Shown: positions 1 to 6,736 of the stretch, one piece after another
How the letters are laid out: each line of letters opens with the position of its first letter
How positions within the stretch are numbered: the first letter of the stretch is position 1
NCBI GenBank assembly: GCA_025358055.1
Contig: JANYKV010000140.1
Location: 1 to 64,000, forward strand
DNA from: Gemmatimonadota bacterium
GTDB taxonomy: Bacteria > Gemmatimonadota > Gemmatimonadetes > Gemmatimonadales > GWC2-71-9
Direction: 5' to 3'
Length of the DNA stretch: 64,000 nucleotides
The notes under the pieces: generated by a model
Told to the model about the DNA's origin: nothing
Database searches by the model: none
Seen by the model: only the letters and a program-made list of their open reading frames with translations
Program-made: the position numbers and the translations under genes

Positions 1-987
1 CTGAGCCACCGCAGCCTGAATCGCACCGAGAGTCAGACGATCTTCCAAGGGGTAGTCCAAGGACAGTATGCCGACGTAGAGGTCGCGGCCCTTCTGGCGG
101 CGCTCAAGACGCGCGGCGAAACCATCGAGGAACTCACCGGGGCCGCCCAGGCGCTCCGCGATACCGCCCTGCCCTTCCCGCGGCCGTCCTATCGCTATGC
201 CGATACGTGCGGAACCGGGGGAGACGGGTCGCGCTCGCTCAACATTTCCACCGCGGCGGCCTTCGTCGCCGCGGAGATGGGCATTCCCATCGCTAAGCAC
301 GGCAACCGTTCGGTCTCTTCCCGCTCGGGGTCCGCGGATGTGTTGGAGGCGCTCGGAGTCCGGCTCGATCCCGCGCCGGATGTCGCCCGGCGATGCTTGG
401 ACGAAGCCGGGGTGTGCTTTCTGTTCGCCCCCCAGTACCACCCCGGCGTTCGCCACGCCATGCCCGTCAGGCGCACGCTGGGCACCCGGACGTTGTTCAA
501 CCTGCTGGGGCCCTTGGCCAACCCCGCCCGCCCCGCATGGCAGGTCATGGGCGTCTACGATGCGCGATGGTGCGAGCCGCTGGCGCGAACTCTTGGCTTG
601 CTCGGTTGCGAACGAGCCTTGGTCGTCCATGGGTCCGGGCTCGACGAATTGGCCCTCCACGGCCCCACCCACGCAGTGGAATGGCGGGATGGGGCTCTGC
701 GCGAGCACACCATTCTCGCCGGCGACGCTGGTGTCGCAGCGGCGCCCATCACCGCCCTCCGGGGAGGAGGTCCGGAAGAAAACGCAGCCTGGTTGCTCGA
801 GACTCTCGAAGGCCGGCGCACCGGACCTCCCGCGGATGCGATCGCCCTGAACGTTGCCGCGCTGGCCTGGCTTGTCGGACACTCGCCGACTCTCGCGGAC
901 GGGGTTCGCGAGGCCCACGAAGCGCTGGCATCAGGCCGGCCAGCCGAGCGGCTCCGACTCCTCGTGAGGCTGTCCCATGGCGCTTGA
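1..987 (+). CDS. trpD: Anthranilate phosphoribosyltransferase (5' truncated by window edge)
   Basis: Transfers phosphoribosyl from PRPP to anthranilate in tryptophan synthesis (cytosolic). Frame 1 is open from the first base; 328 residues are visible and only about ten N-terminal residues seem to be missing compared with the usual ~340. The PRPP-binding glycine loop CGTGGDG lies at visible residues 70-76, followed by the conserved SLNIST segment and the KHGNRSVSSRSGSADVLEALG region. The HPGVRHAMPVRRTLGTRTLFNLLGPLANP stretch is split here only by description: MPVRRTLGTRTLFN and LLGPLANP are both present. The stop overlaps the start of trpCF by 11 nt, so the two are translationally coupled. trpE/trpG are expected just upstream, outside the window. 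Identification is by motif and operon context and is very secure. Confidence 0.97.
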   Translation: MSHRSLNRTESQTIFQGVVQGQYADVEVAALLAALKTRGETIEELTGAAQALRDTALPFPRPSYRYADTCGTGGDGSRSLNISTAAAFVAAEMGIPIAKHGNRSVSSRSGSADVLEALGVRLDPAPDVARRCLDEAGVCFLFAPQYHPGVRHAMPVRRTLGTRTLFNLLGPLANPARPAWQVMGVYDARWCEPLARTLGLLGCERALVVHGSGLDELALHGPTHAVEWRDGALREHTILAGDAGVAAAPITALRGGGPEENAAWLLETLEGRRTGPPADAIALNVAALAWLVGHSPTLADGVREAHEALASGRPAERLRLLVRLSHGA

Positions 988-2368
988 ACAAATTCTCGAA
1001 CACAAACGCCACGCCGTGGCCGAACGACAGGGGCGGCAGCCTCTCGACCGCTGGCGCTCCGGTCTCACCCGGTCCGACCGGAGCTTGGAGGAGGCGCTCC
1101 GGCGACCGCGCACCGGATTCATTCTCGAATGCAAACGGGGGTCGCCCTCCGAAGGAACCATCCGCCCGGACCTCGATCTCGGTGAGGTGGCAGGCGCCTA
1201 CGGCACGTTGGCCGACGCGATTTCGGTTCTCACCGATGACGTCTTTTTCGGAGGCTCGTTTGCCGACCTGCGCGAAATCCGTTCGCGGGTGACTGTCCCG
1301 GTGCTTTGCAAAGACTTCATTCTCGATGACTATCAGGTCTACGAAGCGCGCTCGCATGGAGCCGACGCGATTCTCCTGATGCTGTCGGTCCTGGATGATC
1401 AGACCTACCGCCGCTGCGCCCGGGTGGCCCACGAACTGGCCCTCGATATCCTGACCGAGATCCACACCGCCGCTGAACTGGGCCGAGCCGTGGCCCTCGA
1501 CGCCAAGATCATCGGCATCAACAACCGCGACCTCCGAACTCTGCAGGTGGACTTGAACACCACCCGCCGCCTCGCCCCGGCGGTCCCATCGAATCGGATC
1601 GTCGTGTCTGAGTCGGGAATTCGGACGCACGCAGATGTGGTGTCGCTCCGCCCCATGGTCGACGCGTTCTTGGTGGGTACTTCGCTCATGCGGGAGCCCA
1701 ACCTGTCCCTCGCCGCGCGATCACTGATCTTTGGGCGCACGAAGGTCTGCGGTCTCACGACCCCCGAAGATGCGGCCATCGCGGCAGCCCTCGGCGCCAC
1801 TCATGGCGGCCTCATTTTCGCGCCGGAATCACCCCGCATGGTCCATCCCGCCCGCGTCCCCGAGATTCAAGCCGGCGCGGATCTCGCGTGGGTCGGGGTG
1901 TTCGTCAACGCGCCACCGGACGACATCGCACGCCTCGCGGTGCGCAGCCGCTTCACGGCGGTGCAGCTGCATGGCGAAGAGGACGCCGCGTACTTCGCCG
2001 AACTGAGAACACTGGCGCCCAGCGACTGCGAAATCTGGGAATCTGTTCGCATCGAGAACGCACTCCCCACCCGTAAACGCGTGGGAGCCGATCGGTTTCT
2101 CCTCGATACGTATCGCGCCTCGGCTCGAGGGGGGACGGGCTCGGCCTGGGACTGGCGTTTGTTGGACAATTACCCGGAGCGCGGCGAGGTGGTGGTGTCC
2201 GGCGGGCTCACCCCGGTGAATGTCGCGGCAGCGGACAGACTGGGTGCGTACGCGCTGGACGTCAATAGCGGGGTCGAGTCGTCGCCGGGAAAGAAGGACC
2301 CCACGAAGCTCAAAACATTCTTGAACGTCAGGCGCGGCACTGCGCGTGACCAGGAGCAGGCGCAATGA
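977..2368 (+). CDS. trpCF: Bifunctional indole-3-glycerol-phosphate synthase / phosphoribosylanthranilate isomerase
   Basis: One 463-residue polypeptide carries two successive tryptophan-pathway enzymes. Residues about 1-250 are the indole-glycerol-phosphate synthase barrel: [43 protein letters not shown] and VSESGI are all recognisable. Residues about 255-455 are the PRA isomerase barrel: [11 protein letters not shown] near the junction (catalytic Cys), VQLHGEED, the LLDTY aspartate region, and a terminal [15 protein letters not shown] phosphate-binding segment. The order C then F matches the enterobacterial fusion, but the junction is very short. ATG at 977 overlaps the end of trpD; the stop shares ATGA with trpB. 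A fusion in this phylum may have arisen independently; that is inference. Confidence 0.96.
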
Positions 2369-3534
2369 AGCTCCCCACCAGATTCGGCACGTTCGGCGGC
2401 ATGTACGTTCCGGAAATCCTCGTGCCCGCGCTCGAGGAACTCGAGGCCGGCTTTGTGGCCGCCCGCGAAGATCCGGCCTTCGTGGCTGCCCTGCGCGATC
2501 TTCTGGAACACTATGCCGGACGCCCCACGCCTCTGTATCGCTGCCGCAATTTCGGCGCGGACACCGGCTGCGTCATTTGGCTCAAGCGTGAAGATCTGTT
2601 GCATGGCGGTGCCCACAAGACAAATCAGGCCCTCGGACAAGGATTGCTTGCCCAGCGGTTGGGTAAACGGCGATTGATCGCGGAAACCGGCGCCGGACAG
2701 CACGGCGTGGCGACTGCCATCACGGGTGCGGTCCTTGGTTTCGAGACCCGGATTTACATGGGCGCGAAGGATATGGAGCGGCAAAAGCCCAATGTGTTCC
2801 GCATGCAGCTAATGGGAGCTGAAGTCGTCCCGGTGACGAGCGGCGGGCAAACCCTGAAGGATGCCATCAACGAAGCCATGCGCGATTGGAGCGCCTCCTA
2901 CGAAACGACGCACTACGCCCTCGGGACCGTCGCGGGTCCGCACCCGTTTCCCCTCATGGTGCGTGAGTTCCAGCGCATCATCGGCCAGGAGGCCCGAGCC
3001 CAGTTTCTGTCGCGCCGGCATGTCCTGCCCGATGTCGTCGTGGCCAGTGTCGGCGGCGGCTCCAACGCCATCGGCATGTTCGCGGATTTTCTCACGGATC
3101 CGACCGTGGCCCTGGTCGGAGTGGAGGCGGCCGGCGAAGGCCTGGAAACCGGACGCCATGGGGCCACCATTCAGCTCGGCCGTCGCGGGATCCTCCACGG
3201 CGCGGACACCCTGGTGTTGCAGGACGACGAAGGGCAGGTCAGCGAAACCCATTCGGTCTCGGCGGGACTCGACTATCCCGCCGTGGGCCCCGAACACGCA
3301 CACCTAGCCGAGACCGGCCGGGTGACCTACGTGGTATGCACGGACCACGACGCCCTGGCCGCGTTCGCGGACCTGTCCCGGCAAGAGGGGATCATCCCAG
3401 CGCTCGAATCGGCCCACGCGCTCGCCGAGGCCTTACGGATCGCTCGTCGAAGTGAGCGAGCGACTCACATCCTCGTCAATCTCTCCGGCCGGGGCGACAA
3501 AGACTTGGAAACGGCATCGAGGTTGCTCGCATGA
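2365..3534 (+). CDS. trpB: Tryptophan synthase beta chain
   Basis: PLP-dependent subunit that condenses indole with serine. 389 residues, close to the family norm of ~400. The PLP lysine is K85 in [12 protein letters not shown]; the [12 protein letters not shown] and [10 protein letters not shown] phosphate-binding loop are intact, as is the C-terminal [12 protein letters not shown] segment and the final NLSGRGDKD. Start ATG at 2365 overlaps the trpCF stop by 4 nt (ATGA) and its own stop overlaps trpA by 4 nt, so the tail of the trp operon is fully coupled. Sequence features are those of canonical TrpB1 rather than TrpB2. Confidence 0.98.
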
Positions 3535-4349
3535 ATCGCTATGCATCGATGTTCGACCGGCTCCGCCAGGTGCACGAGGTAGCGTTCATTCCGTTCGTCA
3601 TGCTGGGCGACCCGGACGCCGCCACCGGCCTCGACATTCTCCGCACCCTGATCGCCGCGGGCGCGGATGCGCTGGAGCTGGGATTGCCCTTCTCCGATCC
3701 GATCGCGGACGGACCAGTCATTCAAGCCGCGGGCGTGCGTGCGCTCGCCGCCGGCACCCGGTCCGCCGACTGCTGGTCCATCATCGCCACGATCCGCGCG
3801 GAACATCCGAACCTCCCGATCGGTCTCCTCGTGTATGCGAATCTCGTAGTTCACCACTCTGCTGCAGCTTTCTATCAGGCCGCTGCACGCGCCGGAGTGG
3901 ATTCCGTGTTGGTCGCCGACCTACCGGTGGAGGAGTCCGCCCCGTTCGTCGCCGCCGCGGCAAAGGCAGGTATTGCCCCAGTCTTCATCGCTCCACCCAA
4001 TGCGGACGACCATCGACTGGCCGCGATCGCTCGAGCATCCCAAGGCTACACGTATGTGGTGACGCGCGAAGGGGTGACCGGCGTGGATGAACGGCTTCGG
4101 GGTGACCGCTCCCGGCTGGTCGCTACTCTTCACGACCTCGGTGCTCCGCCGGCAGTCTTGGGATTCGGCATCTCCCAACCCGAGCACGTGCGCGAAGGAA
4201 TTCGGATGGGGGCTGCCGGTGTCATCTCGGGATCAGCCATCGTAGGCCGAATCGCGGAGCACTTAGGTGATCGTCCTCGCTTGTTGGCCGAGATCCGATC
4301 CTTTTGTCGGGAGATGAAAGCCGCCACCAGGATGCCGGAAACCGCCTAG
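3531..4349 (+). CDS. trpA: Tryptophan synthase alpha chain
   Basis: Cleaves indole-3-glycerol phosphate to indole and glyceraldehyde-3-phosphate and channels indole to TrpB. 272 residues. The catalytic pair E49 and D60 sits in [15 protein letters not shown] at the same numbering as the enterobacterial enzyme. [10 protein letters not shown]-like barrel strand, the VADLPVEES loop, TREGVTGV and the C-terminal [11 protein letters not shown] / GVISGSAIV phosphate-binding segments are present. Last gene of the operon: ATGA overlap with trpB upstream and ~175 bp without genes downstream, where the next gene converges from the minus strand. Confidence 0.97.
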
Positions 4350-4525: not shown

Positions 4526-6163
4526 TTAGGGCGCTGCGAGCCCAGGCCCGTATATCACCTTCCCTGCTCGCGCCCCCGTATGGGTGCCGTGGTCGACCAC
4601 GATCTGGCCGTTCACAATGACGTAGTCGATGCCCGCCGGATACTCGAATGGCTTCTCGTAGGTCGAAAGATCCTGGATGTGATCGTAGTCGAAAATGGTG
4701 ATATCCGCCCAGTAACCGACCTGAATTGAGCCGCGTTCGGCGATCCGCATCCGCGTCGCCGGCCACGACGTCATCTTCCGAATCGCATCCGTCAGCGTGA
4801 GCACTTTTTCGTCGCGCACGTACTTCGCGATGATTCTCGGGAAGGTTCCGTAACTACGGGGATGCGGCAATCCGGTTTGATCGAGGGCGCCGGCTTGGAG
4901 CGCCGCGCCCGCATCGCTTCCGATGCTCGTCCACGGAAAACGAAGCGCGGTCTTGATGTCACCTTCGCTCATCATGTGATAGATCGCGACCACCCGGCCC
5001 TGACCCTCTAGCACTAGGTCCCAGGCGGCATCTCGTGGATCCTTGTGCAGCGCGCGGGCAATCACGCTCAGCGACTTTCCTTCCCACTTGGCGTTGTCGG
5101 GATTTCGCGCATTCCCGAGGACCACGCCGCGCCAGCCGCCCGCGGCCTCGATGATGTTCCACCAACCCGGAGAACCGGTCTTGGTTTCCCGCTTCAGCCG
5201 AGCCCGAATTTTAGGATCATTCAATCGCGCCCGAAGAGAATCGAGCCCTCCGTCGAAGGCCCAACTCGGGATGGTCGCTTCAAGGCCAGTCCCGCCGGCT
5301 GTGTATGGATACAGATCGGCCGCGACGTCGACACCCCGCGCTCGCGCTGCCTCGATATGAGCTCCCGCCGCCCGCATGAGCGTGCCCCATCCCGGTTGAT
5401 AGGCCGCCTTGAGATGAAAGATCTCCACCGGCATGCCCGCCTGCTCGCCAATCGAGATCGCTTCATCAATCGCCGTCAGCAGCTCTTTGCCTTCGCCCCG
5501 GATGTGGCTCGCGTAGTGTCCCCCGTATCGCGCGGCAACCTTCGCCATTTCGACCAGCTCGTTCGTTGTCGAGTAACTGCTCGGCGGGTAGATGAGTGCC
5601 GTCGTCATCCCCATCGCGCCCGCACGCATCGCGGTGTCGAGGATCGCCTGCATGCGCTCCAGCTCCTCAGCGGTTGGAGCCCGCGCGTCCCGACCGACCA
5701 CCGCCACCCGCGCCTGCGTCTCACTAAAGTAGGTCCCGAAATTGATGCTGATGCCCGTCTGTTCGAGGCCGCGGAAGTACTCGGCCACTTGTCCCGCGGG
5801 CACCGGTGTTCCGCCTTCGCCGCCGATGGCCGAGGTGACGCCCTCCCGCACCTTGTTCTCCGCGAGCCCGTTCTTCGGGAGGACGGCACCGGACTGATCC
5901 ATCATGTCAATCCAGCCGGGCGACACATACCTCCCGGTCGCATCGATTTCGCGCGTCGCCGGACCGGTGATCCGCCCGATCTTCACGATGCGCCCCGCCC
6001 GGACGCCGACGTCGGCCAGAATCCACGGGTTGCCATGGCCGTCCAGCACCCGGCCGTGCCGGATCACCAGATCATAGGCGGGCTCCTGAGCAACCGCCGT
6101 AACCGCGGCCCCCACGACCACGAGGGACACCAAGACAATCGGTCGGACGATGCGCGAGGCCAT
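4526..6163 (-). CDS. Exported D-aminoacylase/N-acyl-amino-acid deacylase-family amidohydrolase with altered metal site
   Basis: 545 residues. N-terminal signal peptide (residues about 1-25, ending AVAQ) suggests export. The amidohydrolase fold is clear: LVIRHGRVLDGHGNPW at the start, GRYVSPGWIDM strand, later YASHIRGEG and EIFHLKA histidines, SIGSDAGA, and the closing GYWADITIFDYDHIQD segment. It is most like the D-aminoacylase/dihydroorotase-type amidohydrolase_3 family. In that family the first strand ends in HxH (IDVHTH); here the same place reads IDMMDQ, so the two histidines are M88 and Q90, and the usual metal-bridging Cys (GNCG) is replaced by E116 in GGEGG. Two later His and the Asp remain. 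Activity on D-amino-acid derivatives is therefore uncertain. Transcribed alone, converging on trpA. Confidence 0.85.
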   Translation of the reverse strand: MASRIVRPIVLVSLVVVGAAVTAVAQEPAYDLVIRHGRVLDGHGNPWILADVGVRAGRIVKIGRITGPATREIDATGRYVSPGWIDMMDQSGAVLPKNGLAENKVREGVTSAIGGEGGTPVPAGQVAEYFRGLEQTGISINFGTYFSETQARVAVVGRDARAPTAEELERMQAILDTAMRAGAMGMTTALIYPPSSYSTTNELVEMAKVAARYGGHYASHIRGEGKELLTAIDEAISIGEQAGMPVEIFHLKAAYQPGWGTLMRAAGAHIEAARARGVDVAADLYPYTAGGTGLEATIPSWAFDGGLDSLRARLNDPKIRARLKRETKTGSPGWWNIIEAAGGWRGVVLGNARNPDNAKWEGKSLSVIARALHKDPRDAAWDLVLEGQGRVVAIYHMMSEGDIKTALRFPWTSIGSDAGAALQAGALDQTGLPHPRSYGTFPRIIAKYVRDEKVLTLTDAIRKMTSWPATRMRIAERGSIQVGYWADITIFDYDHIQDLSTYEKPFEYPAGIDYVIVNGQIVVDHGTHTGARAGKVIYGPGLAAP

Positions 6164-6274: not shown

Positions 6275-6736
6275 TCAGCGCGGCCACCCGTCCGGGCGTC
6301 CTTCGGTGAGCAGAATGATCGGGGCTTTGAGATCGCCGGCGAACACGGTCGATTCGAGCGACATGGTCCGGTCCATGTCCTCGCGCGTGGACCCGATACA
6401 CGTCGTGAGCATGATGTGTAGGACGGGTTGATCCATCAGGGCCGCGGGGGTCGCCCGTGGGGGACCGAACGCCATTCCGTCACGAATAGTGGCCGGAACC
6501 CGCCCGGAGATGAATACCGGTATTTCCGCCAGGGATTGTAGCAGACGATATGTCAGTGTTGTGGACTCACCGCCACGGGTGACTACCCCAAAAACCGGGG
6601 CGTCGAACCGCCCGATCCGGGGAAACAGGGCCAGCCCGTGGCTGAAGCCGTGGCCGCTATCTTCGGCCACCGCAAGGGTTTCGGTAAGGAGGTCATGGAC
6701 TGCGATCAGGTTCTTGGGAATGGGATCGACGTTCAT
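6275..6736 (-). CDS. Hypothetical protein, 153 residues
   Basis: I do not recognise this family. ATG at 6736 is preceded by a GGGGGG purine run about 5 nt upstream. No signal peptide, membrane segment or cysteine cluster; one Cys only. The sequence looks like a compact alpha/beta globular protein (strands such as APVFGVVTR, IPVFISGR, VLHIMLTTC, APIILLTEGR alternate with charged helices), and the periodic strand pattern could be a Rossmann-like fold, but that is only an impression. It lies between the exported amidohydrolase and a PilZ protein on the same strand, with a ~110 bp gap to the former. Codon use resembles its neighbours. Confidence 0.65.
   Translation of the reverse strand: MNVDPIPKNLIAVHDLLTETLAVAEDSGHGFSHGLALFPRIGRFDAPVFGVVTRGGESTTLTYRLLQSLAEIPVFISGRVPATIRDGMAFGPPRATPAALMDQPVLHIMLTTCIGSTREDMDRTMSLESTVFAGDLKAPIILLTEGRPDGWPR

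Follow-up and report, generated by a model that had tools for sequence, protein, structure and literature searches.

The window, by which we mean the whole stretch of 64,000 nucleotides that was analysed (contig JANYKV010000140.1 of the Gemmatimonadota assembly GCA_025358055.1), carries on its reverse strand a gene whose product, by sequence similarity and barrel fold, belongs by descent to the D-aminoacylase family of the amidohydrolase superfamily. The Pfam match of the product is Amidohydro_3 (PF07969), its similarity to PF07969 and to the D-aminoacylases of the PDB extends over the full length (E 4.6e-69; 1.2e-115 in a profile search), and the solved structures that resemble it most are those of D-aminoacylase (1rjp/1m7j), N-acyl-D-glutamate deacylase (3gip), the Klebsiella D-acylase (9g5m), and PpOngB. 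Against NCBIfam NF006560 (PRK09061) the protein scores 215.2 bits, under the curated cut-off of 340 bits, which places it outside that subfamily, and no NagA entry appears for it among the sequence and structure matches listed. The gene is convergent with trp genes; a scan returned no promoter-like site for it, and no operon function was found from its surroundings. The features of the locus are listed below, the individual residues having been placed by alignment.

977–4349, (+) strand: consecutive genes for a fused indole-glycerol-phosphate synthase/PRA isomerase, for a trpB-like PALP enzyme, and for trpA
4526–6163, (-) strand: D-aminoacylase-like amidohydrolase gene of the Glu class (see below), 545 amino acids plus stop
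6275–6736, (-) strand: open reading frame of 153 amino acids without a Pfam match, just upstream of the studied gene and on the same strand
6086–6163, (-) strand: putative Sec-type signal peptide, residues 1–26 (leader heuristic and low pLDDT of residues 1–25)
5894–5902, (-) strand: M88-D89-Q90 where H-x-H is expected, the ligands of the alpha site being lost (M88 codon 5900–5902, Q90 codon 5894–5896)
5816–5818, (-) strand: E116, putative ligand of the beta metal, standing where the bridging Cys/Asp would be
5588–5590, (-) strand: Y192, counterpart of PpOngB Tyr194, which holds the amide oxygen
5504–5506, (-) strand: H220, predicted beta-metal ligand, counterpart of PpOngB His222
5414–5416, (-) strand: H250, predicted beta-metal ligand, counterpart of PpOngB His252
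5408–5410, (-) strand: K252, counterpart of PpOngB Lys254 (substrate carboxylate)
5309–5311, (-) strand: Y285, counterpart of PpOngB Tyr285 (substrate carboxylate)
4913–4915, (-) strand: D417, predicted catalytic base/acid, counterpart of PpOngB Asp368
4856–4858, (-) strand: R436, counterpart of PpOngB Arg379 (substrate carboxylate)

The metal site of the encoded protein departs from that of the solved D-aminoacylases at two places. The translation of the reading frame contains SPGWIDMMDQSG and AIGGEGG, and where the solved enzymes have GFIDSHTH or GFIDVHGH followed by GNCG, the aligned positions read GWIDMMDQ and GGEGG. A preliminary description of this DNA had proposed that IDMMDQ stands in place of IDxHxH and that the Cys of the GNCG motif has given way to E116; translation and alignment bear out both points, with E116 aligned one position off the Cys, and the span given there (5885–5925) contains the codons of M88 and Q90 and leaves that of E116 outside. 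A scan of all 545 residues found no H-x-H anywhere, so the motif has not been displaced within the protein, and found no cysteine either. In the alignment, E116 lies opposite the Asn that precedes the Cys in 19 of 19 rows of the Cys class, and the segment between GVT and the next P has one residue fewer in the Glu class than in the Cys class; the glutamate appears not to be a strict one-for-one substitute for the cysteine and may occupy the Cys position or the one before it. Compared with the metal site of subtype V amidohydrolases, the protein lacks the HxH of strand 1 (M88, Q90) and the Cys of the Cys/His/His beta site, of which both His are present, and keeps the catalytic Asp after strand 8 (D417).

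Relatives were gathered from 79 loci found with the pattern GWIDMMDQ, from further genome loci, and from plasmid records; a script collected 200 distinct near-full-length sequences after duplicates and short frames were dropped, and all except one (L196) could be classed by their metal-site residues. The 199 classed relatives comprise 19 with HxH and Cys, 49 with HxH and Asp, 5 with HxH and Glu, and 126 with Glu and without HxH (the Glu class), counts that are not prevalences, as the sample consists of the best matches to chosen queries. Glu is present in every one of the 126 relatives without HxH, 104 of which have neither His and 22 the second His only; residue 88 can be M, Q, or L and residue 90 any of Q, H, W, or G (126 of 182 rows). 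The distinct group anticipated by the preliminary description under the signature MMDQSG exists and is broader than that signature, with DIQSH, DIQGQ, NMLSW, and DMMGQ forms as well. Within the MMDQ group, 10 of 83 members carry DVMDQ, DAMDQ, DIMDQ, or DVMDH, and because these members deviate from the search pattern and searches with the whole protein gave the same classes, the bias introduced by the pattern is lowered. The same site is found in a paralogue of the same genome (L081, 73% identity) and in each of the 15 classed orthologues that came from other genomes of the phylum (22 loci were fetched, 7 of which were not kept as distinct full rows). Of 150 genomes of the phylum, 140 yielded relatives of the family; the genome under study has many (24 match rows, some being fragments of a single gene), with paralogues on contigs C2, C5, C39, C61, C83, C92, C101, C114, C128, and C153. 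The HxH and Asp class, which has Asp at the Cys position and includes L085, L086, and L087 of the same genome among others, has no solved structure among the matches, and no member of the Glu class was found among the solved structures matched.

In the five distant members with HxH and Glu (L039, L040, L045, L049, and L057, in each case the second family member of the locus), the Glu lies in a GVTTxLELE motif, and N or V takes the place of the Lys that follows the second metal His. Because these five keep HxH together with Glu, the glutamate alone does not imply the loss of HxH.

The remainder of the active site is strictly conserved. As the preliminary description held, two other His and an Asp persist, namely H220 (ASHIRGEG), H250 (FHLK), and D417 (IGSDAG). 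Tyr194, His222, Glu226, His252, Lys254, Tyr285, Asp368, and Arg379 of PpOngB bind the zinc, the amide, and the substrate carboxylate, according to the covered parts of PMC12017989. Their counterparts in the window protein, paired through the present alignment and not through the PpOngB paper, include E224 (Glu226) in addition to the residues listed above. Y192, H220, R222, E224, H250, K252, Y285, and D417 are each invariant in the Glu class (126 of 126), and R436 is kept in 125 of 126 members, the remaining one having a gap. Relative to 51 HxH members (Cys and Asp classes), the residues specific to the Glu class are E116, A189, E247, and A418: A189 is Gly in 51 of 51 HxH members, E247 occurs in none of the 51, and A418, which stands beside the catalytic Asp, is Gly in 49 of 51.

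The structure predicted by AlphaFold2 on a 38-sequence alignment (pLDDT 93.0, pTM 0.89) matches the D-aminoacylases at a Z of about 56. Nine entries of the D-aminoacylase family lead the comparison with solved structures (Z 55.1–56.2), the next row having a Z of 35.4, and the model superposes on the D-aminoacylase fold, a beta/alpha-barrel, over 452–457 residues with an rmsd of 1.6–2.2. In the model, M88 resides within strand 84–89 and Q90 directly after it, E116 is two residues past strand 109–114, just after barrel strand 2, H220 is at the end of strand 216–220, H250 lies within strand 246–251, and D417 is three residues past strand 412–414.

A maximum-likelihood tree of 57 representatives, built after removal of the trait columns, places 20 of 20 Glu-class sequences in one clade (bootstrap 98, SH-aLRT 99; recovered in 98% of 200 bootstrap trees), outside of which the HxH and Asp relatives fall, and a faster tree of 73 representatives likewise holds 38 of 38 Glu-class sequences together (SH-aLRT 99). 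On these trees the loss of the first His and the gain of Glu map to one branch, which suggests that the metal site was rebuilt once.

The protein had been described as exported, and a Sec-like leader is indeed recognized heuristically at its N-terminus, with a cleavage site near AVA-QE as judged by eye. By the same heuristic, which misses some leaders that look real by eye, a signal-like start is found in 106 of 126 Glu-class, 40 of 49 Asp-class, and 4 of 5 HxH and Glu members and in 0 of 19 Cys-class members, whereas the same test applied 200 residues inside the protein scores 2 of 199 as signal-like. The mean number of cysteines per 480-residue core is 0.7 in the Glu class and 0.82 in the Asp class versus 5.84 in the Cys class. 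Loci L093–L097 and L198–L206 were compared with those of the Glu and Asp classes, most of which have a signal-like start. The pattern is suggestive of a thiol ligand confined to the cytoplasm. We do not claim that export drives the change from thiol to carboxylate, as only one or two independent contrasts can be drawn from the tree, and some members with Glu or Asp lack a leader (L090, L092, L205).

The gene neighbourhoods of the relatives were counted within about 4 kb in the 79 loci, with frames taken from stop to stop, some of which overrun, and with several loci ending at contig ends. Named from one or two representatives per cluster, the neighbours are a serine hydrolase (PF00144, 30 loci), a DgcA-like protein (14), an M19 dipeptidase (12), a DgcN-like protein (11), and an S13 carboxypeptidase (11). 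A DgcN- or DgcA-like neighbour is found in 17 of the 79 loci and both in 8, as raw counts without control loci, and the DgcA and DgcN representatives score under their curated cut-offs (372.8 of 400 and 457.9 of 480, respectively). The loci with these neighbours (Kordiimonas, Sphingomonadales, Steroidobacter, and similar) are 50–60% identical to the query and are not its nearest relatives. Through the DgcN-DgcA pathway, D-Glu is turned into N-acetyl-L-Glu (PMC11747546; PMC10845958). On plasmids of the haloarchaea Haladaptatus (L207) and Natrinema (L208), the family gene lies in a cluster with genes for a DUF1611 protein and a dipeptide epimerase; one of these loci has a Cys-class and the other an Asp-class gene, and L207 also has a serine hydrolase. 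As members of all three main metal-site classes share neighbours, a shared substrate theme of D-Glu or N-acyl-D-amino acids can be argued. The window gene itself has no D-Glu-catabolism neighbours, and the DgcN- and DgcA-like genes of its genome lie elsewhere and score under the curated cut-offs. In 14 scored loci (L012, L033, L039, L040, L042, L044, L045, L049, L055, L056, L057, L058, L071, and L073), another frame belonging to this family cluster lies close by, and some of the pairs mix metal-site classes.

Several studied enzymes show how a site of this kind may function. Canonical members of the family already work with a single beta-site metal: PpOngB reaches full activity with about one zinc per enzyme, bound at the beta site, and a metal at the alpha site attenuates AfDam (PMC12017989; for AfDam also the title of 1v4y). 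E. coli NagA, which has QxN in place of HxH, carries a single metal, at the beta site (PMC3880350, PMC6016474), and for Klebsiella NagA the metal residues named are Glu131, His195, and His216, along with His143 (PMC12409433). The HxH is nevertheless required in two enzymes that have it natively, as the H68A or H70A substitution inactivates PpOngB (PMC12017989) and the exchange of HxH for QxN does the same to a mycobacterial NagA (PMC6016474); its loss in the Glu class must therefore be compensated, and the class-specific A189, E247, and A418 may, as a guess, contribute to this.

It is probable that the window protein is an exported, active hydrolase of the D-aminoacylase fold in a monophyletic Glu class, one that holds a lone metal at its beta site and uses Asp417 as the base. 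A single divalent metal, probably Zn, would be held at the beta site by Glu116, His220, and His250, the alpha site would no longer exist, and Asp417 would activate the metal-bound water, while Tyr192 would hold the amide oxygen and Lys252, Tyr285, and Arg436 the substrate carboxylate. By analogy, the one-metal state would be like that of E. coli NagA. The substrate, proposed with less assurance, may be an N-acyl-D-amino acid, or else a peptide fragment containing D-Glu, encountered outside the cytoplasm. The suggestion of the preliminary description that the enzyme uses a single metal or a carboxylate ligand fits the coupled replacement seen throughout the clade and the retention of the beta-site His, the Asp, and the substrate residues.

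An improbable alternative is that Glu116 bridges two metals, with an alpha site built from Q90, D89, or D417. Carboxylate bridges exist elsewhere in the amidohydrolase superfamily. D89 and Q90 are nearly invariant within the MMDQ group, and Glu sites are known from CE9/NagA in the literature covered; across the class as a whole, however, positions 88 and 90 vary, so that D417 is the only alpha-site ligand that all members would share. Slightly less probable still is an active enzyme that is no deacylase, such as a metal-dependent lyase, isomerase, or esterase acting on a carboxylated substrate. The family name has been transferred purely by similarity, and no class member was found among the solved structures, but the counterparts of the PpOngB residues for the amide oxygen, the base, and the carboxylate are all kept, and the neighbouring genes resemble those of the Cys- and Asp-class relatives. 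We consider it unlikely that the protein is a pseudoenzyme, which the preliminary description had also entertained and in which the fold would be kept and hydrolysis lost, the protein binding or scaffolding something. Both alpha-site His and the Cys are indeed missing, and the equivalent His are essential in PpOngB, but the catalytic Asp, both beta-site His, the substrate residues, and the new potential ligand are invariant over 126 diverse members; this strict conservation leaves the pseudoenzyme unsupported, and decay would not yield one coupled, conserved replacement. A sequencing or alignment error, the refuting explanation that the preliminary description had named, has nothing found in its favour and is ruled out for practical purposes, as is chance: the protein has no H-x-H, and the site recurs in the L081 paralogue, in all 15 classed orthologues, and, as Glu, in all 126 relatives without HxH.

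Several known systems stand close to the Glu class. The D-aminoacylase of Alcaligenes faecalis (1m7j/1rjp) and the Bordetella (3gip) and Klebsiella (9g5m) enzymes, which are subtype V amidohydrolases, share its fold (Z 55–56), the beta-site His pair, the catalytic Asp, and the carboxylate-binding Lys, Tyr, and Arg; they have the HxH and the Cys ligand, whereas the Glu class lacks both and has Glu116 instead. The GlcNAc1A deacetylase PpOngB (9kb1, PMC12017989) has the same fold and a proposed beta-mononuclear chemistry, and its substrate residues can be matched singly, but it has Cys97 and needs His68 and His70. The HxH and Asp relatives belong to the same family, have a carboxylate at the Cys position, and mostly carry a leader, and differ in the kept HxH and in having Asp rather than Glu. 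MlrF of the microcystin-degradation cluster is encoded by a D-aminoacylase-like gene beside mlrB (serine hydrolase) and mlrE (dipeptidase) (PMC4520899, PMC6256522), a setting shared by several of the loci here, the likeness being one of gene neighbourhood. E. coli NagA (CE9) also lacks HxH and has a catalytic Asp and a Glu/His/His beta site, the latter a feature that the Glu class would probably share, but it belongs to another family with another substrate. The Glu ligand of NagA follows strand 3, whereas the Glu in the D-aminoacylase fold stands after strand 2, at the place of the Cys.

The amidohydrolase literature speaks of nine metal-site subtypes, and Glu after strand 2 without HxH is absent from the subtypes described in the portions of it covered. 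A description of the Glu class was likewise not found in the literature searched, a weak result since most subscription papers lie outside that scope. It is possible, though we put it forward tentatively, that the Glu class represents a metal-centre subtype beyond those named in the literature covered, in which the beta site, built from the Glu after strand 2 and two His, is obligately mononuclear and the alpha site has been erased. Such a site would have arisen once by coupled ligand exchange. Gemmatimonadota, Acidobacteriota, and Proteobacteria would employ it outside the cytoplasm to free D-amino acids, chiefly D-glutamate, from peptides or N-acyl derivatives, a setting in which a thiol ligand and a second, inhibitory metal would be disadvantageous.

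Glu-class records carry the name D-aminoacylase (for example, in Deinococcus and Rhodococcus), with no solved structure found for the class, and if the site is mononuclear with Glu, this annotation needs caution. If the proposal is true, the family would offer a natural series of Cys, Asp, and Glu, with and without HxH, for testing the gain and loss of a second metal, and common soil bacteria may use the exported enzymes to supply their D-glutamate catabolism.
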